A stretch of 34,461 bases of DNA from assembly GCA_003003725.1 (NCBI GenBank), contig PVWI01000030.1, positions 1 through 34,461 on the forward strand, given 5' to 3'. The translations under genes and the position numbers were made by a program. A model generated the notes under the pieces. That model was given only the letters and a program-made list of their open reading frames with translations, was not told the DNA's origin and did no database searches. Within the stretch, counting starts at the first letter, position 1, and each line of letters begins with the position of its first letter. The DNA comes from a filamentous cyanobacterium Phorm 6 (GTDB taxonomy: Bacteria > Cyanobacteriota > Cyanobacteriia > Cyanobacteriales > Microcoleaceae). Positions 1 to 31,837 of this stretch are shown here, in pieces.

Positions 1-2877
1 CTGGTTAAGTTGGAACGGTGGGAGGAAGCGGTAGAAGCTTACCGGATGGCGATCGAATTAAATCCCGATTTTAGCTGGTCTCACAACAATTTAGCTGATG
101 TTTTGCTGAAGTTGGAACGGTGGGATGAGGCGGTAGAAGCTTACCGGAAAGCAACTGAGTTAAATCCCGATTTTAGTTGGTCGCACAATTATTTGGCTGA
201 CGCGCTGGTGAAGGGGGAACGCTGGGATGAGGCGATTTCGGCTTACCAAAGGTCGATCGAACTGAATCCCGACCATTTTTGGGCGCACAACAATCTAGCA
301 GAAACGCTGGTGAATTTGGAACGCTGGGATGAGGCGGTTGTTGCGTACCGGCGGGCTAACGAAATCGACCCGAATTTTTTCTGGTCCGAGAGCAAGTTGG
401 GCGACGCGCTGCTAGAAATGGAAAGGTGGGAGGAGGCGATCGCAGTTTATCGGCGGGCGGCCGAGTTGAATCCTGATTTTGCGTGGACTTATTACAACAT
501 GGGGACGGCTCTGGAGAAGCTGGAACGGTGGGATGAGTCGATCGCTTCTTACCGCCGTGCTGTGGAAATTCAGCCGGATTTGCCGTGGATCTCGCAAAAG
601 CTGGCTGATGCTTTGAGGATGCGATCGCAGTGGGATTTGCAGGAGGCGATGCGTTTGTACCGACGGGCGATTCAGGAGAATCGTGATGATGTGCAGTTGT
701 ATCACAAGGCGTTGGAGATTGCGCCGAATGATGCTGACCTTTATGTTGAGTTGGCGAATGCTTTGGTGCGGCACAGTTGGCCGGATGGGGCGATCGTCTT
801 TTATCAGATGGCGTTGCAGATTCGGCCGGGCGATCGGGGGATTTCGGCGCGGTTAGACAAGGTGCTGGAAAAAAAAAAGCCAATTAAAAATCAGTCGCGA
901 GTAGAGGTATTGAGTCCGGCTAAAAGCCCCGAACCACTTCCCAGTAGTCGTATTGAGCATCAGTCGCGAGTAGAGATATTGAGTCCGGTTAAAAGCCCCG
1001 AACCAGTCCCCAGTAGTCGTATTGTTGTCAGCGAACATCGGAAAGCTAAACCCTTGAACGGAGATGTACGTCTGATTGCTTTCTATCTGCCACAGTTCCA
1101 TCCAATACCAGAGAATGATTTATGGTGGGGCAAAGGTTTTACGGAGTGGACTAAAGTAACCAAAGCTCAACCTTTATTTGAAGGACACCATCAACCTCAG
1201 CTTCCAGCAGAGCTAGGTTTCTATGACTTACGGATTCCTGAAGTTAGAGAAGCGCAGGCAGCCCTAGCGCAAAAATATGGGATATTTGGTTTTTGTTATT
1301 ATTATTATTGGTTCGCAGGTAAGCGCTTGCTTCACCTTCCTCTTGATGAAGTGTTGCGAACAAAAAAACCTGATTTTCCATTCTGCGTTTGTTGGGCGAA
1401 TGAAAACTGGACCAGACGGTGGGATGGAGCCGAACATGAGATCCTGATCGCGCAAGAACATTCGCCAGAGCAAAATAAAGCTTTTGCCGAAAGTTTAATT
1501 CACATTTTGCTTGACGAGCGATATATTCGCATCAATGGCGAACCCTTACTCATTGTCTATCGGAGTGATATTTTGCCAGATCCTCTACAGCTCACAGAGC
1601 AGTGGAGAGAGGTTTTTAGAGCAAATGGTGTCGGAGAAGTTCACCTTTGCCTCGCCATTACCTGTTTTTCAGGTTATGTAGACCCGGTGAGCATAGGTTT
1701 TGATTCTGCGTTGCAGTTTCCACCGCATGGAGTACCTGCTCGCGAAATTTCACCTTCTGAACTTGCGGGAATGCACCCAGATTTCACCGGAAAGCTGATG
1801 GATTATCAAGATGGCGCTATCAATGCCGTAGCGACAAACCTTCCAGACTTTAAAATATTTCCTGGAGCTATGCCGTCATGGGATAACACGGCTCGAAGAG
1901 GAACTACTGCTCATGCTTTTATTAATTCCAGCCCCGATATTTACGAGTTTTGGTTGCGCGGTGCGATCGAAAAAACCACACAAAGGAATTCAGGCGATGA
2001 ACGAATTGTTTTCATTAACGCTTGGAATGAATGGGCGGAAGGAGCCCACCTAGAACCAGATCAGAAATATGGACATAGCCACCTTTTAGTTACCAGTAAA
2101 GCACTTAACGGGACACACGGTTGGAGAACGAGTCTTAATCTGCTACGCTATTTTCCTAATAAAACCGTAGACTATCTGAATCAACTGCTTGATGAATTAG
2201 AGGAAAAAACTACTGCTCATGATCGTTCTATTCAGGCATTGTACAGCATGATCCAAAGACTCGTTATCATCTCTGAGATCGATCATTATCAACAATATTC
2301 TGAATTATGGTGGAACTTGGAATCCCCTAAACCTGAAATGCAGTTCGATATCAATTCTATTGTTATATCAGGCTGGATATTGTCTGCAATTTCTAGGGCT
2401 GTTAGCATAGAAGTCATGTCTAACGATCGGATTATTCAGCGATTTCCTGTTAATATAGAGCGTCAGGATATAGGTGACGCTTATTCCTTTCCTGATGCGC
2501 ATCGTAGCGGTTTTTCAGCAAGGTTAAAATTAGGCTGGGTAGAATCTGAACAATCTATAAATTTGCGTGCTGTTCTGCAAGATGGAAGTTATATTCCATT
2601 ATCATTAATCCGGTTACAACAAGGCTATAAGACTATTCAAAAGTTAGGGATAGCTGTAGATGAAAATGGTCAATTCCGTTATTCCCAGTCAGATATTGTA
2701 AAAGCAAGGATCAATCAGATCCGAATTCTTCCTCTTGAAGGAAGCGATGAGCAGCGTTGGGAATTGTTGAATCAATTGGAGAAAGAAATCGAGGCTCAAG
2801 AACAAGTAATTGAATCACTATCCAATTTTCTTAAACAGATCCCTGAAACGAATCTTTTCGCTTTCGATGCGGACTAA
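1..2877 (+). CDS. TPR-WbsX glycosyltransferase, 5' end outside window
   Basis: Predicted cytoplasmic glycosyltransferase for surface polysaccharide. The frame is open to base 1 and the first in-frame codons already read as TPR sequence (VKLERWEEAVEAYR), so the true start lies upstream. Three parts are visible. Bases 1-850 encode about seven 34-residue TPR units of the type LERWDEAVEAYRKATELNPD. Bases 870-1045 encode a linker containing a run of ten A and a 69-bp tandem duplication. Bases 1060-2155 encode a WbsX-type domain (Pfam Glyco_tran_WbsX), recognised by AFYLPQFHPIPENDLWWG, GFTEWT, GFCYYYYWF, WANENWTRRWDG and NAWNEWAEGAHLEPD. Bases 2305-2630 encode a C-terminal module starting WWNLESPKP that also occurs at the N-terminus of the methyltransferase at 3978-5483. 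The family is associated with O-antigen and exopolysaccharide clusters. The sugar donor and acceptor cannot be told from sequence. Confidence 0.88.
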   Translation: MVKLERWEEAVEAYRMAIELNPDFSWSHNNLADVLLKLERWDEAVEAYRKATELNPDFSWSHNYLADALVKGERWDEAISAYQRSIELNPDHFWAHNNLAETLVNLERWDEAVVAYRRANEIDPNFFWSESKLGDALLEMERWEEAIAVYRRAAELNPDFAWTYYNMGTALEKLERWDESIASYRRAVEIQPDLPWISQKLADALRMRSQWDLQEAMRLYRRAIQENRDDVQLYHKALEIAPNDADLYVELANALVRHSWPDGAIVFYQMALQIRPGDRGISARLDKVLEKKKPIKNQSRVEVLSPAKSPEPLPSSRIEHQSRVEILSPVKSPEPVPSSRIVVSEHRKAKPLNGDVRLIAFYLPQFHPIPENDLWWGKGFTEWTKVTKAQPLFEGHHQPQLPAELGFYDLRIPEVREAQAALAQKYGIFGFCYYYYWFAGKRLLHLPLDEVLRTKKPDFPFCVCWANENWTRRWDGAEHEILIAQEHSPEQNKAFAESLIHILLDERYIRINGEPLLIVYRSDILPDPLQLTEQWREVFRANGVGEVHLCLAITCFSGYVDPVSIGFDSALQFPPHGVPAREISPSELAGMHPDFTGKLMDYQDGAINAVATNLPDFKIFPGAMPSWDNTARRGTTAHAFINSSPDIYEFWLRGAIEKTTQRNSGDERIVFINAWNEWAEGAHLEPDQKYGHSHLLVTSKALNGTHGWRTSLNLLRYFPNKTVDYLNQLLDELEEKTTAHDRSIQALYSMIQRLVIISEIDHYQQYSELWWNLESPKPEMQFDINSIVISGWILSAISRAVSIEVMSNDRIIQRFPVNIERQDIGDAYSFPDAHRSGFSARLKLGWVESEQSINLRAVLQDGSYIPLSLIRLQQGYKTIQKLGIAVDENGQFRYSQSDIVKARINQIRILPLEGSDEQRWELLNQLEKEIEAQEQVIESLSNFLKQIPETNLFAFDAD
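869..879 (+). other. A10 homopolymer in coding frame
   Basis: Ten consecutive A residues encode EKKK exactly between the TPR array and the linker before the WbsX domain. The reading contains A AAA AAG, a heptamer known as slippery in bacterial frameshifting. A one-base change would separate the TPR array from the glycosyltransferase domain. Slippage itself is inference. Confidence 0.6.
892..1029 (+). repeat. 69-bp tandem duplication in the linker
   Basis: Two adjacent 69-bp copies (892-960 and 961-1029) differ by a few substitutions. Both encode a 23-residue proline- and serine-rich linker starting QSRVE(V/I)LSP and containing KSPEP and PSSRI. The copy is in frame, so it lengthens the flexible hinge between the TPR array and the WbsX domain. 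Confidence 0.9.
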
Positions 2878-3977: not shown

Positions 3978-5483
3978 TCAGCGATCGCCAACAGGTTTTT
4001 GCATAACGATCAGCGATTGCGGGATGATCGCTGGATCGTAGGTGAAATCGCAGAAATCTAGATATTTAGTCCACTCTCGCTCAACGTACTTCTGAGGGAT
4101 TACAGCTTCTCCGTAAAAAGATGCGTCCCGAGGACCTCCGCCCCCCGTCGCACTGTATAAAAACTTACCGCTGTCGTAATCTGCCAGAGCTGCTTCAGTA
4201 TTCACAAATGAGTGTGCCAAGGCATGATGCCAATTATTAGAAGTATTGCTCTGGTTTCGGAGGGTGCGACAAAGTTCAATAAAACTACGCGCCTGAGTGG
4301 TAGCGACGAAGATGCCTCCTGGTTTTAGTATCCTCGAAAACTCTTCCACCCACTTGATGTGGACAGGTTCTGCCAAATGAGAAAAGACAGAGTAGGCGTA
4401 AACAATATCGAAACAGCCATCAGACAACTCCAAAGGAGGTAGTGGTTGGATCGCGCTGTAGTTTCCGTGTTTGACTGTGTTGATACAGAGCTGAGTCATT
4501 TCTGAATCGACATCAATCCCATATAAATTCTCAGCAGCGACATCTTTGAGGAAAAATCGAATTATCCGCCCCCATCCACAACCAAAATCGAGAATACGGC
4601 TCTCTCGCCCTAATTTCAGCCCCAGTTTCCCTAAATACCGCTTGATTTCAGAATAGAAATTAAACGCTTCGTTAAGAGCCTGCTGTCCCGACATCCCGAC
4701 AAACTGACGCTGAAGTTCTTCTGGCGGAAATCCCGGCATTTCAATGCCGTCTACAACTTTGTGATCCAGACTTTTAAGCAGTGTCTCCAACCATTCTCGA
4801 TCGCTCATCCCAGACCCATAAGTCAAGATAGCAGCGTTAGTGCTTTTGCAGGCAACAGCCTCCGGTTTGACAGGAGAATTTGTTTTCTGGTTCGCCAATT
4901 CTGCGGATAAATTCATTGTGGCGATCGCTTGCGATTGATTCTCCGTCTGGTACTTTTGGGAGTTTAAGCGCGGTAATTGCTCTTGAGTTTGGCGGAGCAA
5001 AGGCTTATGTTGCTCCAACTCTGACTGAATTTGCTCTAGTCGAGTCCGAGAACGCTTTAAATCTGCCTGAATCTGCTTTAAGCGCGGCAGCTTTTGCCGA
5101 AATCTCACCACAGCGATCGGCACAATGCTTTGATCTGAAAACACAGCTTCGAGAACTAATTCACATTCATCTGACAGTTCGCCTACTCCTACTTCAGCCG
5201 AAAAGCCACAGTTTTCCGAACCTGCTACATTTGAATGAATTTTAGCTACATCCGGGCGAGGATTATTAGTAGCAATTTCCTGAATTACTGTGCCACCGCT
5301 AGTTACTTTGATAGCAACTGCTGGATATTTTTTTCCTAAGATCCAGCCATAAACAAAAATTTTGTCCGTTTCAAACTGGAGATTATTGCGCGGGCTGTCT
5401 ATATTATAGCCCCATAGCAAGCCGGAATCTTCTACGGACAACGCAGCTACATCTAAAATTTCAATTAAAGCTTGTTCGCTCAT
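3978..5483 (-). CDS. Methyltransferase with GWIL module and coiled coil
   Basis: This 501-aa protein has four parts. Residues 22-130 form a module with GWILG and CGFSAEV that aligns with the C-terminus of the WbsX protein. Residues 131-185 are a predicted coiled coil rich in Q, L, R and E. Residues 190-290 are a linker. The class I SAM-dependent methyltransferase domain follows, with motif I ILDFGCGWG at 297-305 and the acidic strand GIDVDSEM around 322. The substrate is unknown; given the neighbours it is probably a sugar or glycan end. The ATG at 5483 is preferred because an upstream in-frame start at 5546 would overlap the preceding gene by 29 bp. It is the last gene of a minus-strand trio, 34 bp behind the broken sulfotransferase. 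No strong ribosome-binding site is visible. Confidence 0.82.
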   Translation of the reverse strand: MSEQALIEILDVAALSVEDSGLLWGYNIDSPRNNLQFETDKIFVYGWILGKKYPAVAIKVTSGGTVIQEIATNNPRPDVAKIHSNVAGSENCGFSAEVGVGELSDECELVLEAVFSDQSIVPIAVVRFRQKLPRLKQIQADLKRSRTRLEQIQSELEQHKPLLRQTQEQLPRLNSQKYQTENQSQAIATMNLSAELANQKTNSPVKPEAVACKSTNAAILTYGSGMSDREWLETLLKSLDHKVVDGIEMPGFPPEELQRQFVGMSGQQALNEAFNFYSEIKRYLGKLGLKLGRESRILDFGCGWGRIIRFFLKDVAAENLYGIDVDSEMTQLCINTVKHGNYSAIQPLPPLELSDGCFDIVYAYSVFSHLAEPVHIKWVEEFSRILKPGGIFVATTQARSFIELCRTLRNQSNTSNNWHHALAHSFVNTEAALADYDSGKFLYSATGGGGPRDASFYGEAVIPQKYVEREWTKYLDFCDFTYDPAIIPQSLIVMQKPVGDR

Positions 5484-5517
5484 TTTTTTAGCTTTTGTTA
5501 GGAATGAATATCTTATT

Positions 5518-6333
5518 TTAACTGAAAACTGTGACAGTGTTAGCAATCACAGAACGATTTTGCTCCATTTTTGCCTGAACTTGTGACAGCTTCTGCCGAG
5601 ATGCACTCAAAGCGAGATCGTACTGTTCAAATGAACTTGACAACCCTTGGCGTTTAGCTCTCATATCTAATGCTTTTTGATACAGTTCCATGTCTTTGCT
5701 AGTTATTTCTGTTAGCCTTTTCATTGTACTTTTGTCAGTCAATGCTTTTTGTAAAAGCTCCTGATAATTAGGATACTTATTTTGATTAAAAACCTCCATT
5801 TTAAACTCAGGCAAACCTAGCATCTGCTTCAGTTCTGCTAAATCATCTTGAAAAAATTCTTGAACACCAACAAAGTAAAAATCAGTTAAATCTACATCTC
5901 GACAATAGTACTAGACCAAGGGATTCATCCAGTTTTTAGCATTCATTTCTGCAAACTCTAACAGACTGATGTTATTTTCAACCATATACTTATGTTCTTC
6001 ACTAAAAAAAACATTTTCTTTGGGCTGCGACTTCCAAAAAAAGTAGCCAGAAATGAATTGAATAATTGGATTTCTCATCCAGATTATTCTTTTTGCTGAT
6101 GGGAAGTAATCCTTGTATTTCCTTGCTGGAAAATGACCGTGAATAACCCTAGCTTGTGGTTGATCAGACAATCTATCCAGAGTATTTTCTAATTTTTCCT
6201 GTTGTTGATAGTCACCAAAAACTTGCATCTCGCCGTAGACCTGTTTTAAAATTCTCCCAAAAGTTCCTCCCGCTGTTTTGTGTACGTGGACTGAGATGAT
6301 TTCCACTTGAGAATCCTTGAATAAATTATTCAT
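5518..6333 (-). pseudogene. PAPS-type sulfotransferase split by one amber codon
   Basis: The gene would encode 271 residues of a P-loop sulfotransferase that moves sulfate from PAPS to a glycan or other hydroxyl. HVHKTAGGTF near residues 16-25 is the 5'-phosphosulfate loop, and RIIWMRNPIIQFISGYF near 82-98 is the 3'-phosphate site. Codon 141 (bases 5911-5913) is TAG, after NWMNPLV. The same frame continues without another stop as YYCRDVDLTDFYFVG and then a normal helical C-terminus, so the lesion is one nonsense change and not a frameshift. The ATG at 6333 follows GAGGAG 11 bases upstream; a longer start at 6390 would overlap the preceding methyltransferase gene. It may be a recent pseudogene, a read-through gene or an assembly error. 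The family assignment is firm. Confidence 0.85.
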
Positions 6334-6373
6334 TTCCAATTTGGCTCCTCTTGTTTGCTGCTGAACTGATATT

Positions 6374-8275
6374 TTATGAAATAGTAACAACAGTTCTAAG
6401 AGCTGTTATACTCCGCATCAGTTGTTTCCACTCCGCTGAGTTAGTGAGAGAATAACTATCAAATTCATAACCTTTCTCTAACGATAACTTCGCAAAACTT
6501 TCTAACCAGTTTACCACTGTTTCTGTGCGCGATAAAGGGGTACATTTCAAAGATTGCTGCAAATAGTGAGCCACACCAGCCAGATCACCTTTACCGTAAG
6601 CATACCAAGCCTCCCACAACAAGAGATTGTACTGCGTCGGGTGCTGTCCCTCTGCCTGAGTGGCGGCTAGATTTTTTTGAAATAGCAATCGCTCCAATAC
6701 TTCCTGAGTCTGATGCAGTTGGGACTGAGATTGTTCTAAGACAGCATTCGTCTCGTTCAGTTGAACTTGAGCTTGTGCTAGTTTTGCACCAGTTTGACCC
6801 TGTTGAGACTGAGATTGTTTGAATTTCGTTTGAGTTTGTGCTAATTCGGCTTCAGTTTGAGCCTGTTGAGACTGAGATTGTTCTAATTCTGCCTGAGTCT
6901 CGCGTAGTTGAGACTGAGATTGTTTCAATTCTGTCTGAGTCTCGTGCAGTTGAGATTGAGATTGTTTCAATTCTGTCTGAGTCTCGTGCAGTTGGGATTG
7001 AGATTGTTCCAACACCACCTGAGTCTCGTGCAGTTGAGATTGAGATTGTTCCAACACCACCTGAGTCTCGTGCAGTTGGGATTGAGATTCTTCTAACACT
7101 GCCTGAGTCTCGTGCAGTTGAGATTGAGATTCTTCTAACACCACCTCGGTATGTTGCAGTTGAGATTGAGATTCTTCTAACACCGCCTCGGTATGTTGCA
7201 GTTGAGACTGAGATTGTTCCAATTCTGCTTGAGTCTCGTGCAGTTGAGACTGAGATTGTTCCAATTCTGCCTGAGTCTCGTGCAGTTGAGACTGAGATTG
7301 TTTCAATTCTGTCTGAGTCTCGTGCAGTTGGGATTGAGATTGCTCTAACACGGCCTCGGTATGTTGCAGTTGGGATTGAGATTGTTCTAACACTGACTCG
7401 GTATTTTGCAGTTGAGACTGGCATTGCATTAATATTACCTCAGTCTGATGAAGTTGAGACTGGTATTGACTCAGGAATGCGTTGGTTTGATGCAGTTGAG
7501 ACTGAGATTCTGCCAATGCTATCTGATTTTCTTTGAATAAGTCGTCTGGCTTGTCTATATATATAGAATCTATAGCTGGTTGCACATTTGTAACTTCATC
7601 TGAACATAGAGCGATAAAATAAATTGGCTCTTCTAAGGAGCAAACCTTCTGATTCACTTCACTATCATCAAAGGTATAAGCATTGAAGCTAGGTTGACTC
7701 GCTTCCTTCAAAGGAAAAATAAAAGATCCTGTTGCCAACCTTTGACCGTAGATTTTAACGTGCTTAAAGTGGCGATTCAGCAAGCTAATAAATTGATAAT
7801 CGTAAAGCTCTTTGACGTGAAATGGATTAGAATATTCAGGCAAATCTGAATAAGTCAGCCGATTGGGAGAAGAAATTATCAGCAGCCCTCCTGGATTGAG
7901 AACCCTTTTGATTTCTTGCATCATTTCTTCATGTTGATTGTGATGCTCAATCGTTTCAAAGGATGTAACAATATCTACAGATTGACTGGGAAGGGGAATC
8001 GCCTCACAAGCTCCTACCACAAACTCTAAATTGGGACGATCTCCGTACTTTTGATTTGCATATTCTACAGATTTGGAGTCAATATCAACTCCCACGACTG
8101 AACGAGCAAATTTTGATAAGCTTGCAGATCCGTATCCCTCTCCTGAAGCGATATCCAGCACTTGTTTGTCGCGAGCTAACTCCATCGACAGAGCATACCT
8201 GTGCAAATGTTCATACTTGATTTGCCCCTTCATGCAAGAAGGCAAATATCTTTCACCTGTAGGTTCTAATTCCAT
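6374..8275 (-). CDS. SAM methyltransferase with ~20x14-residue coiled coil
   Basis: This 633-aa protein starts with a class I methyltransferase domain at about residues 1-200: motif I VLDIASGEGYGS at 39-50, VVGVDID at 60-66, and FETIEHH and LNPGGLLIISSPN further on. Residues 252-528 are a long coiled coil made of about 20 units of 14 residues, consensus QSQLHETQAVLEQS, exactly two heptads each. The last 105 residues are helical (LLLWEAWYAYGKGDLAGVAHYL). The ATG follows AGGAGG nine bases upstream. It is the first gene of a minus-strand trio. Methyltransferase plus extended coiled coil is the plan of WbdD, which caps E. coli O9a chains and measures their length, but no WbdD kinase domain is seen here. 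The ruler role is inference. Confidence 0.85.
   Translation of the reverse strand: MELEPTGERYLPSCMKGQIKYEHLHRYALSMELARDKQVLDIASGEGYGSASLSKFARSVVGVDIDSKSVEYANQKYGDRPNLEFVVGACEAIPLPSQSVDIVTSFETIEHHNQHEEMMQEIKRVLNPGGLLIISSPNRLTYSDLPEYSNPFHVKELYDYQFISLLNRHFKHVKIYGQRLATGSFIFPLKEASQPSFNAYTFDDSEVNQKVCSLEEPIYFIALCSDEVTNVQPAIDSIYIDKPDDLFKENQIALAESQSQLHQTNAFLSQYQSQLHQTEVILMQCQSQLQNTESVLEQSQSQLQHTEAVLEQSQSQLHETQTELKQSQSQLHETQAELEQSQSQLHETQAELEQSQSQLQHTEAVLEESQSQLQHTEVVLEESQSQLHETQAVLEESQSQLHETQVVLEQSQSQLHETQVVLEQSQSQLHETQTELKQSQSQLHETQTELKQSQSQLRETQAELEQSQSQQAQTEAELAQTQTKFKQSQSQQGQTGAKLAQAQVQLNETNAVLEQSQSQLHQTQEVLERLLFQKNLAATQAEGQHPTQYNLLLWEAWYAYGKGDLAGVAHYLQQSLKCTPLSRTETVVNWLESFAKLSLEKGYEFDSYSLTNSAEWKQLMRSITALRTVVTIS
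6690..7520 (-). repeat. 42-bp tandem repeat array, about 20 units
   Basis: Inside the methyltransferase gene a 42-bp unit is repeated about 20 times with no spacers. Inner units are nearly identical at DNA level and outer units are more diverged; one half-unit (QTKFKQS) breaks the period. Every unit is in frame and encodes two coiled-coil heptads. Such arrays change copy number easily by slippage or recombination. The array also opens spurious reading frames on the other strand. Confidence 0.92.
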
Positions 8276-8635
8276 CTTTAATATCCTCCTGCTGTCTAAT
8301 TTATCGCTATATCTACTGATTTTATACTAACCAGAGTACCATCTCCCTCAGTCTATCCAAGACTCTGAGCGGTGGCAGGAAGTTTCCGCCAGTTCAACTC
8401 CAAACAAGCAAACCCCTCGTCCAGAAAATTCTTGACAGTATAACTTTACCTTGGCCGCGATCGCGCTTTTGCACCGGCGATACTGGGATAAAACCGTTAC
8501 CGTACCGACTATATCAGATATCAAGCCACCTGATGATCTGTTGCCAAAATGGTGTATTATAAACAAGCTGGTGCTGTAGTAAGCAGCCCCATTGGCTTAA
8601 AAGTAATATTTTATACAAAAAATAATCAACCGAAA
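8276..8635. promoter_or_regulatory. Divergent intergenic region, 360 bp
   Basis: This spacer separates the minus-strand methyltransferase trio from the plus-strand TPR gene and should hold promoters for both. A TTGACA at about 8431 and AT-rich TATTATAA at about 8553 are visible, but their spacing to each other or to partner boxes is not convincing. A HIP1 octamer lies near 8457. No small gene or stable hairpin is supported. Confidence 0.35.
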
Positions 8636-11600
8636 ATGAACGAGCAAAAGGCTGTAACCGAATTCGAGAAAGGCAATCAACTTCTGCAAGACGGCAAACT
8701 AGAAGATGCGATCGCAGCCTATTGCTGTGCGATCGAGTTAAATCCCGCAAATTCCTGGTTTCACCACAACCTAGGAGAAGCTCTAGCCAAACAGGGGCGA
8801 TTTGATGAAGCGGTCACAGCTTTTTGTTCCGCTATAGAAATCAAACCGGATTTTTCTTGGTCTCATCACTACTTGGGAGATGCCCTCGCTCAACAGCAAA
8901 AATGGAAAGAAGCCACCGAGGCTTTCCGCACAGGGATTGAACTGAATCCCGAACATTTTGGGACTTACTGTGGCTTAGGGCAGAGCTTGGAAAAACTTGG
9001 GTTATTTGATGAGGCGATCGCAGCTTACCGCCGTGCAAGTAAACTGAACCCTGATGCTGATTGGATTCATCATGCCTTGGCAAATGTACTGCAACAGCGA
9101 ACTCAGTCGGATGTAGCAGGGGCGATCGCCTCGTACCGCCAGATCGTAGAACTAAATCCTGACAACGTGGAAGCCTATCAGAATCTTTTGCAGGTTCAAC
9201 CCGATAACTCAGAAACCTGGTTTCAGTTGGCCGAAGCTTTTGTGAGAAAGGGAAAGACGGAGAAAGCGATCACATCTTACCGCCGTGCGATCGAACTAAA
9301 CCCACGCGCGATCGAACTAAACCCAAAATCTTTCTTGTTGTACCAGCAGTTTGGCAAAGTTCTGGCCAACCAGGGGGATGTAGCAGGGGCGATCGCTTCT
9401 TACCGCCGCGCGCTCGAACTAAACTCAAAGTCAGTTGAGGTTCTCGAAGATTTGTGGGTTGAATTGAGCCGACCAAGACAGTGGGAGCAAGCAGTAGACC
9501 TCTACCGCCAAATCCTTGAAGCTAACCCAGATATACCATTAGCTCACTACCATTTAGGAGCAGCCTTGACTTACCTGTGTAGGTGGGAGGAAGCCTCAGC
9601 AAGTTACCAGCGGGCAATAGAACTAAACCTGGAGTATTCGTTTTGGCCACACCAACTCTTGGGGTCTACCCTGGCGAAACAAGGAAAGCTGAATGAGGCG
9701 ATCGTGGCTTACCAAAATGGCTTAGAGATTGAACCAAACGGGCGGGGATACTTTGAATTAGGGCTGCTGTTTGTAGAATACGAACACTTGAATGAAGCCA
9801 TTTTATCTCATCAAAAAGCTGTAGAGATTGAACCAAACCAAGCACAGGCTTATTCATCTTTGCTGGAACTCGTTAGTAGAGCGTACCATCAGTTAGGAGT
9901 CCATCAAGCAGAACAAGGTCTGTTAGATGAAGCCATCGCATCTTACCTAGAAGCCGTAAAAATATCGCCAGAAACGTTTGACTATTGTCATCGGTTGGGA
10001 GAACTTTTGGCAAGAGTAAATCAACCAGAACACTGGGAAAAAGCGATTAATATTTATGAACATATTATTACCAAGCAGCCGGAATCAAGTAATGCCTACC
10101 ATTTTTTAGGAGATATTTTTAGATATACACAACAGTGGGAAAAAGCTAAAGATGCCTATTGTAGAGCTATTGAGCTATCTCCAGAAAGAGATGTATTGCA
10201 TCATTTCCTAGCACATATTATTCACCATCATTCTACTACAACAACATGGGAAGATGCTGTTGAATTTTACCGCCACGTTATTGCGATTCATCCCCAAATA
10301 GCATGGTTTCATTACCATTTAGGAGCTTCATTGGCTCTTTTATCTCGGCTTGAGGAAGCAGTAGAGAGTTACAAAAGGGCAATCGAAATGAATGTTGCTC
10401 CTAATTCTTTTTGGCCTTATTATTTACTAGGGAATGCTTTACTTGGACTGGGTAATGTAGATGATGCTATTAAATCTTATCAAAAAGCATTAGAGAGTGA
10501 ACCAACAGAAAATTTTTATCAAACAATAGAGCAATTGTTGCTCCAGAACAACTATTTAGAAGAAGCAGTCAAGTGGTATCAGAATCTTTTAAACTTCAAC
10601 ACAAAGTGGGCAGGACTCCACTCGGATTCACATAAAAGTTTCATAAAAAATTATTATGATTTAGGTTTCCAAAAAGCCAAAGAAGGAAGAATCAATGAGG
10701 CTATATCTTGTTTTCATGCTGCTGAAAATCGTCCAACAGATGGAGAGATTTACGAGGAAATCTGGAAAGGATTAAATGAGTTAGCACCCCTCAATGAAAA
10801 TAATCCCTATTATCCTTCTGAAGTTAAGTGGCAACAGCCCTATTACTACTTTTCGCACGCAAGTACAAATAAATATAGGGTGATATATTCTTATGCATTA
10901 AACGATGACGATGAAATTTTTATTGAAAACAGTGGTTTTTCTATAGATTATCTTAAGTTAATAGGATTAGATGATGTTGATAAAGAAAAGATTTTTATTC
11001 AGAGCTTTCAGGATTCACCAGATGTTACGTCCTTATTTGACGAAGAAGTAACTTGCTTCTTTACAGGGAAAGGTAGATTTTTTCAACAAAGTATAGTAGA
11101 AACTGGCTATATTTATTCATTATGCCCAGTAACAGGTCAAATTCTTAGAACAAATCAATCATTTCCTCTACAATGTGCAGCATTCTTAACGAGAACAGCT
11201 TATCGTTTTGTTGGTCAAGAAGTTTTTTATTTGATAGCTGGTAGTTGGCTAGGAGACATAGAGTATATTTATTTTCCGAGGATAGAGCTTATTTTTGTGC
11301 TGGCTCCGAGCTTTGATACCAATGGTCGCAATTTAATTAACGAATTAAAAGCCCTGATGATTAGTTGTTGGCAGAGCGTTAAAAAATACATAAATAGTAA
11401 TCAGAGAGAGATAGCTGTAACTACGGCTTTTTTTGCAAATTTTGGACACCAGCTATCGAATGAGTTTACGGGAATAGCCACTTTCTTTGAAAAAGGAACA
11501 ATCCACAAAATTGATAAATTTATTGTAGGAGAATATGAACACTTTAATGTTGCTGATATTTTTCCTGGAGTTTCCCAAGAGCAGATAGTTAGATTAGAAA

Positions 11601-12337
11601 GAGATAAGTTTCTGCCCTTGGGAATTGATATCCTCTTTCAAACGACGATAGAAAATAGTTATTTTGTGGTTAGACTTTCACAAAGTTATATCAAGGAAAC
11701 ATTAGCACAGCTCATGTATAAAGGAGGCCTCAAACGATCGAGTCAGCAAGTTTTACAGGAAGTTGAAGAAGTCAAACAGCATTTTCCTATATTGTGTATC
11801 CAAATTCGTAGTCATTATCGCTTATGGCTATCTCAAGTAGAAGGAACCGCCAACATCATCAAAGCTATCCATGCAGATTTTCCAAATTTAGCAGTGGTAT
11901 TCGACGGTTGGTCTATAGGTGAAATGCCTGATACTAGGTCTTTGAAAGGAATAGAAGAAGATGGAGTAATTATAGAAAAAATACGGGAGTTACTACCCCC
12001 CAATATTCAGACCTATAGCGCTAGTGGTCGAACAACCTGGGAAACAGTTGTTTGGGCTAATAGCGTAGATCTCTTTATGGCACCAATTGGCGCAGGTGGT
12101 ATGTATTTAGTAGGGCTGGCAAGAAAGAAAGGTGTTATGTATAGTAACCGAAGGATTTTGAGTCAGATTAGTCAGGATTATAAAAAAATTAGAGAAAATG
12201 TAATATTACCCATATTTGTTCCTATTGATTCCATTTATGATGATTTAGATGCTATGGATAGTAATTTTGATTTAGATTGGCAAGTTATTTACTATGAACT
12301 CAAGAAGATTATAGATAGTCTTAATACTGAAAAATAA
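8636..12337 (+). CDS. Large TPR protein with glycosyltransferase-like C-terminus
   Basis: This 1233-aa protein has about 18-20 TPR-like units from the start to roughly base 10600, with the pattern LAKQGRFDEAVTAFCSAIEI and frequent YRRAIELNP. The last ~580 residues are different. They include FFANFGHQLSNEFTGI near base 11430 and VVWANSVDLFMAPIGAGG near 12050, a layout reminiscent of the C-terminal donor site of GT-B or GT61-like (DUF563) enzymes; this is a weak family call. The ATG at 8636 (MNEQKAVTEFEKG) is preferred over 8549 because the TPR motif begins there; no clear ribosome-binding site is visible. By eye the TPR half is richer in G+C and HIP1 sites than the AT-rich C-terminal half, which suggests a fusion of parts with different histories. 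Confidence 0.75.
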   Translation: MNEQKAVTEFEKGNQLLQDGKLEDAIAAYCCAIELNPANSWFHHNLGEALAKQGRFDEAVTAFCSAIEIKPDFSWSHHYLGDALAQQQKWKEATEAFRTGIELNPEHFGTYCGLGQSLEKLGLFDEAIAAYRRASKLNPDADWIHHALANVLQQRTQSDVAGAIASYRQIVELNPDNVEAYQNLLQVQPDNSETWFQLAEAFVRKGKTEKAITSYRRAIELNPRAIELNPKSFLLYQQFGKVLANQGDVAGAIASYRRALELNSKSVEVLEDLWVELSRPRQWEQAVDLYRQILEANPDIPLAHYHLGAALTYLCRWEEASASYQRAIELNLEYSFWPHQLLGSTLAKQGKLNEAIVAYQNGLEIEPNGRGYFELGLLFVEYEHLNEAILSHQKAVEIEPNQAQAYSSLLELVSRAYHQLGVHQAEQGLLDEAIASYLEAVKISPETFDYCHRLGELLARVNQPEHWEKAINIYEHIITKQPESSNAYHFLGDIFRYTQQWEKAKDAYCRAIELSPERDVLHHFLAHIIHHHSTTTTWEDAVEFYRHVIAIHPQIAWFHYHLGASLALLSRLEEAVESYKRAIEMNVAPNSFWPYYLLGNALLGLGNVDDAIKSYQKALESEPTENFYQTIEQLLLQNNYLEEAVKWYQNLLNFNTKWAGLHSDSHKSFIKNYYDLGFQKAKEGRINEAISCFHAAENRPTDGEIYEEIWKGLNELAPLNENNPYYPSEVKWQQPYYYFSHASTNKYRVIYSYALNDDDEIFIENSGFSIDYLKLIGLDDVDKEKIFIQSFQDSPDVTSLFDEEVTCFFTGKGRFFQQSIVETGYIYSLCPVTGQILRTNQSFPLQCAAFLTRTAYRFVGQEVFYLIAGSWLGDIEYIYFPRIELIFVLAPSFDTNGRNLINELKALMISCWQSVKKYINSNQREIAVTTAFFANFGHQLSNEFTGIATFFEKGTIHKIDKFIVGEYEHFNVADIFPGVSQEQIVRLERDKFLPLGIDILFQTTIENSYFVVRLSQSYIKETLAQLMYKGGLKRSSQQVLQEVEEVKQHFPILCIQIRSHYRLWLSQVEGTANIIKAIHADFPNLAVVFDGWSIGEMPDTRSLKGIEEDGVIIEKIRELLPPNIQTYSASGRTTWETVVWANSVDLFMAPIGAGGMYLVGLARKKGVMYSNRRILSQISQDYKKIRENVILPIFVPIDSIYDDLDAMDSNFDLDWQVIYYELKKIIDSLNTEK
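9287..9325 (+). repeat. 21-bp in-frame duplication at a HIP1-like site
   Basis: GCGATCGAACTAAACCCA occurs at 9287-9304 and again at 9308-9325, giving RAIELNPRAIELNP. The second copy adds seven residues and breaks the 34-residue TPR spacing at this unit. It looks like a small recent tandem duplication. Confidence 0.8.
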
Positions 12338-31133: not shown

Positions 31134-31308
31134 ACTAATAACTAATAACTAATAACTAATAACTAATAACTAATGACTAATAACTAATAACTAATAACTA
31201 ATAACTAATGACTAATAACTAATGACTAATAACTAATAACTAATGACTAATGACTAATAACTAATAACTAATGACTAATAACTAATAACTAATAACTAAT
31301 AACTAATG
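31134..31308 (+). repeat. 25-unit heptamer array ACTAATR
   Basis: Twenty-five uninterrupted units of ACTAATA or ACTAATG. Units 6, 11, 13, 16, 17, 20 and 25 are the G type, each giving an ATG. The ATG of unit 25 is the start codon of the phosphatase gene; the six earlier ones open only four-codon frames (ATG ACT AAT AAC TAA, or GAC for AAC). Heptamer arrays of this type are known as STRR sequences in filamentous cyanobacteria. Confidence 0.95.
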
Positions 31309-31794
31309 ACTAAATTATTGTTTGTCTGCCTTGGTAACATCTGCCGATCGCCCTCAGCAGAAAATATCATGGATCATTTAATCGAAAAAGCAGGTTTGGG
31401 CGATCGTATCACCTGCGATTCCGCCGGAACTGCCGGCTATCACATTGGTAGCGCCCCTGACAGCCGCATGACATTGGCTGCGAGGAAGCAAGGAATTGAA
31501 TTGTTAGGCGCAGCCCGTCAATTTCAAAGGAAAGATTTTGAAAATTTTGATTTGATTCTGGCGATGGATCGGGACAATTATCGGAATATTCTTGCTCTCG
31601 ACAAGGCCGGAAAATATCAAGATAAAGTGCGGTTGATGTGCGATTTTTGCCAGAAATACGACCTAAAAGAAGTGCCAGATCCTTACTACGGCGGCCCGGA
31701 GGGATTCGATCGCGTAATTGATTTGCTGATGGACGCTTCGGAGGGTTTGTTGGAGTATGTTATGAGTCAGGAACAATTAACAATTAACAATTAA
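31306..31794 (+). CDS. Low-molecular-weight protein-tyrosine phosphatase
   Basis: This 162-aa cytoplasmic phosphatase has the loop VCLGNICRS with catalytic C8 and R14, and the general acid D125 in DPYYGG. In bacteria such enzymes often act on tyrosine kinases that control exopolysaccharide export, which would fit the glycan locus, though it sits among housekeeping genes. The start codon is the last ATG of a 25-unit heptamer array and has no ribosome-binding site. It must be right or nearly so, because the family begins only a few residues before the loop. The last residues (LTINN) and the stop are encoded by a second heptamer array. Confidence 0.93.
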   Translation: MTKLLFVCLGNICRSPSAENIMDHLIEKAGLGDRITCDSAGTAGYHIGSAPDSRMTLAARKQGIELLGAARQFQRKDFENFDLILAMDRDNYRNILALDKAGKYQDKVRLMCDFCQKYDLKEVPDPYYGGPEGFDRVIDLLMDASEGLLEYVMSQEQLTINN

Positions 31795-31837
31795 CAATTA
31801 CCAATTACCAATTAACAATTCCCAATTACCAATTACC
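31774..31837. repeat. Heptamer array CAATTAM at two convergent gene ends
   Basis: About nine units of CAATTAA or CAATTAC (one CAATTCC). The array encodes the last residues and stop of the phosphatase on the plus strand and the last residues GNW and stop of the response regulator on the minus strand. No hairpin terminator is present between the two. Confidence 0.9.

Follow-up and report, generated by a model that had tools for sequence, protein, structure and literature searches.

A cyanobacterial methyltransferase with a repeat-built arm of variable length, from a family often linked to Wzm-Wzt exporters

Organization of the locus and of the encoded protein

The window analyzed here, i.e. the whole stretch of 34,461 nucleotides of a contig from a filamentous cyanobacterium of the Microcoleaceae, contains on the reverse strand a gene whose product combines a methyltransferase domain, a coil encoded by a DNA repeat array and a C-terminal module. 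The features of this gene and of its neighborhood are the following:

6374..8275, reverse strand: open reading frame (ATG start, 633 residues) for methyltransferase, repeat coil and C-terminal module
7541..8275, reverse strand: class-I SAM methyltransferase domain, residues 1-245, of the FTGERY/YEHLHRY family
6692..7507, reverse strand: array of ~19.4 units of 42 bp (14 residues) each, forming a heptad ladder, residues 257-528
6377..6649, reverse strand: C-terminal helical module, residues 543-633, also present on GT2/GT4, sulfotransferase and other proteins
5518..6390, reverse strand: sulfotransferase gene, split (5911-6390 and 5518-5823); an intact single open reading frame in G008 (L045; 290 residues) and G007 (L046; 294 residues)
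3978..5546, reverse strand: second methyltransferase, with an N-terminal beta-type domain (domain assigned by eye)
1..2877, forward strand: TPR-WbsX glycosyltransferase, open at the contig end
2930..3802, forward strand: GT2 glycosyltransferase
8549..12337, forward strand: TPR protein, the divergent neighbor

The methyltransferase domain was recognized in Pfam as Methyltransf_11 (residues 40-134, E 5e-24), and in NCBIfam the full protein had, among the best 25 of 38 matches, none but generic ones to methyltransferases and coils that stayed below the cut-offs. Tandem Repeats Finder detected the array as a period of 42 with 13.2 copies and 87% matches (6865-7417), and with the register set by hand it covered residues 257-528, that is, 272 residues or 19.4 units of 14. 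These values agree closely with the sequence-only reading, which had described an SAM methyltransferase followed by ~276 residues of coil in ~20 units encoded by 42-bp repeats. The longest hydrophobic run at an exact 7-residue spacing was 32 heptads, compared with at most 6 in shuffled sequences (n = 200), which excludes a chance repeat as the explanation of the array. The open frames that cross the array on the other strand or in other frames were rejected as genes because they merely mirror the repeat. The 13 central units showed a mean pairwise DNA identity of 0.81 and invariant leucines at positions 5 and 12, and the final units were irregular. The heptad core is weak, with one Leu per heptad, the second core position being Gln or Ser/Thr.

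The continuity of the coil was checked with an AlphaFold2 prediction (13-row alignment; mean pLDDT 63, pTM 0.36), which as a model of the monomer cannot by itself prove a coiled coil. The prediction placed helices at residues 252-326 and 338-538 (block pLDDT 45-74), separated by a low-confidence break at 326-337 (pLDDT <50), and a helical C-terminal domain at 546-628. The latter corresponds to the module at residues 543-633, which was absent from the sequence-only reading. The gene product is probably a surface-sugar methyltransferase with a long repeat-built arm; its substrate would be a sugar, and its coil may oligomerize.

The gene is separated by 273 bp from the upstream divergent open reading frame, which leaves no room there for the small methyltransferase gene described below for related loci. 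Elsewhere in the window, a 69-bp duplication (93% matches; 890-1024, forward strand) lies in the stretch of the TPR-WbsX gene that separates the WbsX domain from the TPR region, and heptanucleotide repeats mark both ends of a low-molecular-weight phosphatase gene (ACTAATA, 25.7 copies, 31134-31313; CAATTAC, 9.1 copies, 31772-31837).

The methyltransferase family and Wzm-Wzt export

A scan of genome contigs, for which six methyltransferase domains were aligned, gave 44 loci of the METHYLTRANSFERASE family, and the sequence fetched around them, up to 6 kb to either side, was searched by tblastn with Pfam-confirmed Wzm and Wzt. A Wzt-type ATPase was found near 36 of the 44 loci, Wzm near 29 and a Wzt C-domain near 27; these counts keep two loci cut by contig ends (L096 and L082) and a frame-broken one (L074), and they include as a miss L097, whose match (27% over 134 residues) does not make it a true family member. 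The eight loci that lack Wzt are L097, those of G008 (L054) and G007 (L059), L060, L063 and L065 from Planktothrix, L073 from Baaleninema, and L067 from an Acidobacteria bin. Since an even phylum sample held few family members (8/386), these linkage counts derive mainly from the pattern-selected set of 44 loci. As a second route, 11 family-bearing genomes from the even sample and from a search of relatives (6/118) were scanned for Wzt_C. Outside f1, the family to which the window belongs, Wzt_C lay ~36 bp to 1.5 kb upstream of the methyltransferase gene on the same strand in 6/6 genomes (G085, G236, G325, G356, G449 and G129), whereas within f1 (G000, G008, G007, G039 and G059) it was either nearly 2 Mb distant or on a separate contig in 5/5. 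At least four of the former six are records of the 44-locus set (G085/L057, G236/L061, G356/L056 and G449/L086), so that the second route is not independent of the first and confirms its result rather than adds to it.

Long heptad arms were found in a minority of the Wzt-linked loci. The heptad ladder exceeded every shuffle in only 9 of the 36 (L055, L056, L062, L064, L066, L071, L076, L077 and L086), where it reached at most 25 heptads, and the remaining ones have a short arm or no such arm; this score is blind to other arm patterns, and L073, for instance, scores 5 (shuffle maximum 6) yet has a plainly repetitive coil. A basic-aromatic tail of the SKFWK type follows the coil in 13/44 loci, all of them Wzt-linked, with a charge of +4 to +6 in the five tails examined; it occupies in many relatives the place that the helical module has in the window protein. 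We do not call this tail amphipathic, since the hydrophobic moment of SKFWKLR was no better than that of shuffles in 5/5 cases. In several of the loci, from Acidobacteriota, Nitrospira and Proteobacteria (L069, L070, L078, L079, L081, L085, L087, L093 and L095), the methyltransferase continues as a fusion into a long C-terminal region, glycosyltransferase-like by eye, and a Wzt-type ATPase lies near each of them.

The wbdD genes of E. coli O8 and O9a are encoded near Wzm-Wzt, a proximity that they share with the relatives of the window gene. As in WbdD-type terminators (E. coli O9a/O8, Klebsiella O3/O5), which join an N-terminal class-I methyltransferase, a long coil and a C-terminal segment, an N-terminal capping-type enzyme (residues 1-245) is followed in the window protein by an extended heptad array (residues 257-528), and an extended coiled coil is described as a hallmark of the terminator strategy (PMC11231755). 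The members of the family that elsewhere lie close behind a Wzm-Wzt exporter are, accordingly, candidate chain terminators. The window gene differs from WbdD in having no transporter neighbor, no kinase (as in O8) and a different C-terminal module, which stands where WbdD carries its membrane-associated amphipathic helix and polymerase recruitment site. The product is a putative terminator only, and its arm is repeat-built and about twice as long as the WbdD coil of ~20 nm (PMC5082667). The sequence-only reading had deduced from the absence of a kinase that the capping chemistry would differ, which holds against O9a but not against the WbdD of E. coli O8 and Klebsiella O5, where methyl alone is the cap (PMC11231755, PMC3482155). 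The absence of WbdD from the best 50 matches of a structural comparison shows nothing either way.

The ORF6 terminator of Klebsiella O7, for which cyanobacterial orthologues are mentioned, resembles the family in that it and these orthologues combine methyltransferase and coil with or without C-terminal glycosyltransferase modules, an arrangement that the long fusions of the non-cyanobacterial members recall (PMC11231755). It differs from the window protein by a kinase domain between methyltransferase and coil, and a change in the length of a repeat array is not among the features described in the excerpted account (PMC11231755).

The window copy lies outside the transporter context. With tblastn at 1e-3, neither Wzm nor Wzt was found in the 34-kb window, in 52 kb of the G008 contig, in 39 kb of the G007 contig or in the fetched Planktothrix stretches, the sole exception in these searches being a 26% ABC-ATPase match in G039, ~24 kb from the gene. 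The window's own genome (6.6 Mb) has two Wzt_C genes, both on other contigs (C294 and C280). In the methyltransferase tree, which omits L074, L096 and L097, the loci without Wzt clustered (3 label changes against a shuffled mean of 7.5, with 0/500 shuffles as low), a clustering that near-copies favor; support was moderate, 88/94 (drawn open), for the group with the transporter-less cyanobacterial loci, which includes three Wzt-linked rows. In cassettes such as L055, L062 and L066 a small methyltransferase gene lies between Wzt and the big methyltransferase, and it still adjoins the big one in G007, in L060 and in one of two Planktothrix stretches (L048). This retention is compatible with relocation from a Wzm-Wzt cassette, and we infer that direction for the move.

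In the window's genus the position next to Wzt is filled by another gene. On C294 the gene after Wzt (L053, 9020-10552, reverse strand) encodes a methyltransferase of another kind, in which a coil and an SKFWKLR tail accompany a domain that looks beta-type by eye; the protein also seems to have a CBM-like domain (by eye), which can be likened by eye to that of the O7 ORF6 terminator (PMC11231755). This methyltransferase-coil gene was found in 24/24 same-genus genomes searched (loci L127-L151; partial in G016), ~90 bp from Wzt_C in 3/3 checked (G000, G008 and G007), and its coil spans 91, 98 and 105 residues in 9, 12 and 2 of 23 genomes, i.e. it varies by heptad steps within a narrow range. Should the genus have a coiled-coil ruler, the Wzt-adjacent locus on C294 would be the better place for it. 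The next gene on C294 (L053, 3632-8995, reverse strand), close to Wzm-Wzt, encodes a protein of 1788 residues with a weak Sulfotransfer_3 start, a coil and GT2, GT2 and GT4-type domains, a layout reminiscent of terminator-coil-polymerase proteins, except that a sulfotransferase would stand where these have the terminator.

Orthologues with an intact methyltransferase but no coil in an equal glycan context had been named beforehand as evidence that would contradict a ruler. Such orthologues were found in Planktothrix, where the context is similar but not equal: the methyltransferase is 60-61% identical to that of the window, the WbsX domain 73% and the GT2 68%, whereas tblastn revealed no homologue of the window sulfotransferase in these stretches and matched only the N-terminal domain of the second methyltransferase. 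In the Planktothrix protein the methyltransferase is preceded by TPR repeats and followed by another domain, and a coil is lacking (the ladder scores 5, the best shuffle 8); these orthologues thus contradict a ruler in part.

These data bear on the proposal of the sequence-only reading that the window gene encodes a possible WbdD-like ruler. Methylation would then cap the non-reducing end of the glycan, and the ~40-nm arm would set the chain length needed to reach the active site. WbdD likewise carries its methyltransferase N-terminally, at the distal end of an extended coil (PMC11231755), and both the frequent linkage of the family to Wzm-Wzt and the heptad-phased steps by which the arms differ (see below) argue in the same direction. 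For the window protein itself such a ruler is nonetheless unlikely: no transporter is nearby, another coil methyltransferase fills the Wzt slot in the genus, most Wzt-linked loci are without a ladder above shuffles, the Planktothrix relatives have no coil, WbdD is a weak match (E 3.4e-4, 30th of 68 in a PDB sequence search), and the tail is found on sulfotransferases, other unrelated enzymes and enzyme-free proteins. The comparison with WbdD is better backed than the letters alone showed, but for part of the family and not for the window gene.

Array length among relatives

The nearest relative, G008, has a methyltransferase 95% identical to that of the window and a protein of 661 residues instead of 633, and the difference of 28 residues equals exactly two units. 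The end units of both arrays correspond, and the middle ones have turned over; among the 15 central units of G008, Leu 5 is invariant and position 12 is Trp in two and Val in one. The dN/dS values between the window and G008 (0.10 for the methyltransferase and 0.34 for the module) indicate purifying selection. In Nostoc calcicola and Desmonostoc geniculatum (L055 and L056) the arms are one unit (14 residues) apart despite methyltransferase domains that are identical in protein and 99.2% identical in DNA, and the differences are 28 residues between L064 and L086 and 14 between L062 and L071. Multiples of 14 residues thus separate the arms in 4/4 sister pairs with repeat-built coils, compared with differences of 12, 0, 2 and 0 in four pairs without them; the long-tailed fusions L069 and L070 differ by 15 residues, and L059/L060 was left out because L060 is cut by a contig end. 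Each species is represented by one genome in the sets, so that repeat counts are compared between species, and short-read assemblies may miscount arrays; many of the units, however, are not identical. Because the unit is 42 bp long, its gain or loss preserves both the reading frame and the heptad phase, and the best reading of these comparisons is that arm length evolves through gain and loss of repeat units. The earlier suggestion that a DNA array encodes the length of the rod and can change it by two heptads at a time was borne out between species, by the two extra units of G008 and the single one that separates Nostoc from Desmonostoc. In the G007 homologue (L046, 8815-10523, reverse strand) the methyltransferase and the coil with its module are in different frames with a short overlap, and this copy is broken or misassembled.

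Such length changes might also be neutral, the arm being a low-complexity helical linker altered by unequal exchange whose phase and helix are kept and whose length is meaningless. This account, which we regard as improbable, is consistent with ladders that range from chance level to 25 heptads inside one methyltransferase family, with the finding that every sister pair with repeat-built coils differs in length, and with array units that turn over beside a conserved methyltransferase. It does not fit well with the retention of Leu 5 and 12 in the central units of the window or with pair differences made of whole 14-mers, and the narrow range of 91-105 residues in the Wzt-adjacent coil of the genus indicates that proteins of this kind can have a constrained coil length.

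An effect of unit number on rate or processivity, through more docking or substrate contact rather than through a measured distance, is a quite remote prospect. The model for it is NeuO, a polysialic acid O-acetyltransferase that, like the window protein, is a glycan-modifying enzyme with a variable count of repeat-encoded heptads, and whose activity increases linearly with their number (PMC3046976); unit number varies in arms of the window type also. The heptads of NeuO are, however, positively charged and unresolved in the crystal (PMC3046976), whereas the units of the window are Q-rich and predicted to be helical, and NeuO further differs in the N-terminal position of its repeats and in its enzyme fold. 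A phase-variable on/off switch of the NeuO type was rejected, because the 7-bp units of NeuO shift the frame and the 42-bp units of the window keep it, the array being open through 272 codons.

The shared C-terminal module and a tailoring role

The module was detected in 40/59 relatives at E <= 1e-8. It has no Pfam, NCBIfam or confident PDB match (best E 0.05 in a PDB sequence search), and Foldseek with the module model returned 0 matches at E <= 0.001 (234 at E <= 10). Aligned in 33 rows, it is a candidate new family carried by glycosyltransferase, methyltransferase and sulfotransferase proteins. The sharing of coil and module was followed in 19 places of the genus and family, chosen from module matches. 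The domain ahead of the coil is methyltransferase-like by eye in six of them, none of which (6/6 scanned) has such a Pfam match, an FkbM methyltransferase in two (both Pfam-matched), a Methyltransf_24 enzyme in one, and by motif a sulfotransferase in five (Pfam match in L118, L122 and L123, none at 1e-5 in L119 and L124). Masked sequence precedes the coil in two places, and in the remaining three, which gave no Pfam match, coil and module occur without an enzyme domain; each of these coil-only genes lies beside a stand-alone sulfotransferase gene, and the open frames abut or overlap. Other module matches in the window's own genome were seen on glycosyltransferase proteins (C343 and C377). Neither Wzm nor Wzt was found in any of the 19 places within the ~7-12 kb fetched. 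That such diverse, unrelated activities have this tail in common speaks for docking or co-assembly rather than for chain termination as such, and a docking role of the module would be in agreement with this distribution.

We therefore favor, with a probability of about 0.5, the reading that the window protein is a glycan-tailoring O-methyltransferase with a long Q-rich helical arm and a small C-terminal docking module, because coil and module occur on several kinds of enzymes and on enzyme-free proteins, no Wzm/Wzt is nearby and the Wzt slot is otherwise filled. The module would be a common anchor that gathers GT2/GT4, sulfotransferase, FkbM and coil-only proteins at the growing glycan, and the arm would be a spacer that sets the reach of the methyltransferase. 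Whole 42-bp units would be gained or lost with the frame never broken and the heptad phase kept, and in the lineage of the window the methyltransferase would have come to lie in a transporter-less cluster for sulfation and methylation. Against this tailoring role, the contig is only 34 kb long and a transporter encoded elsewhere, as Wzt_C is on C294 and C280, could serve in trans, the long arm is itself a terminator marker, and the neighboring sulfotransferase gene is split in the window genome.

A broader proposal, which we put forward tentatively and hold to be rather doubtful, is that the long-armed Wzt-linked cyanobacterial members are O-antigen chain terminators with a minisatellite ruler, in which the copy number of the 42-bp unit would determine modal length, and that in an offshoot represented by the window protein this writable arm became joined to a docking tail common to many glycan-decorating enzymes. 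In our literature searches no paper stood out that brings together Wzt-linked coil methyltransferases of cyanobacteria and repeat arrays, and coiled-coil rulers of glycan length have so far been established in a few enteric serotypes. Some members of this transporter-linked methyltransferase family have coils of near-identical units, with close relatives exactly one or two units apart. If the proposal is true, sister species with near-identical enzymes would differ in O-antigen length by fixed increments, and since the unit-wise variants occur in nature, arm length could be compared with LPS banding without engineering, as in Nostoc calcicola (FACHB-3891) and Desmonostoc geniculatum, one unit apart, or in Nostoc sp. 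LEGE 12450 and Desmonostoc muscorum FACHB-395, which differ by two units. The module, in turn, joins methyltransferase, sulfotransferase and glycosyltransferase proteins and may offer a handle on how surface-glycan enzymes are organized in this cyanobacterial family.
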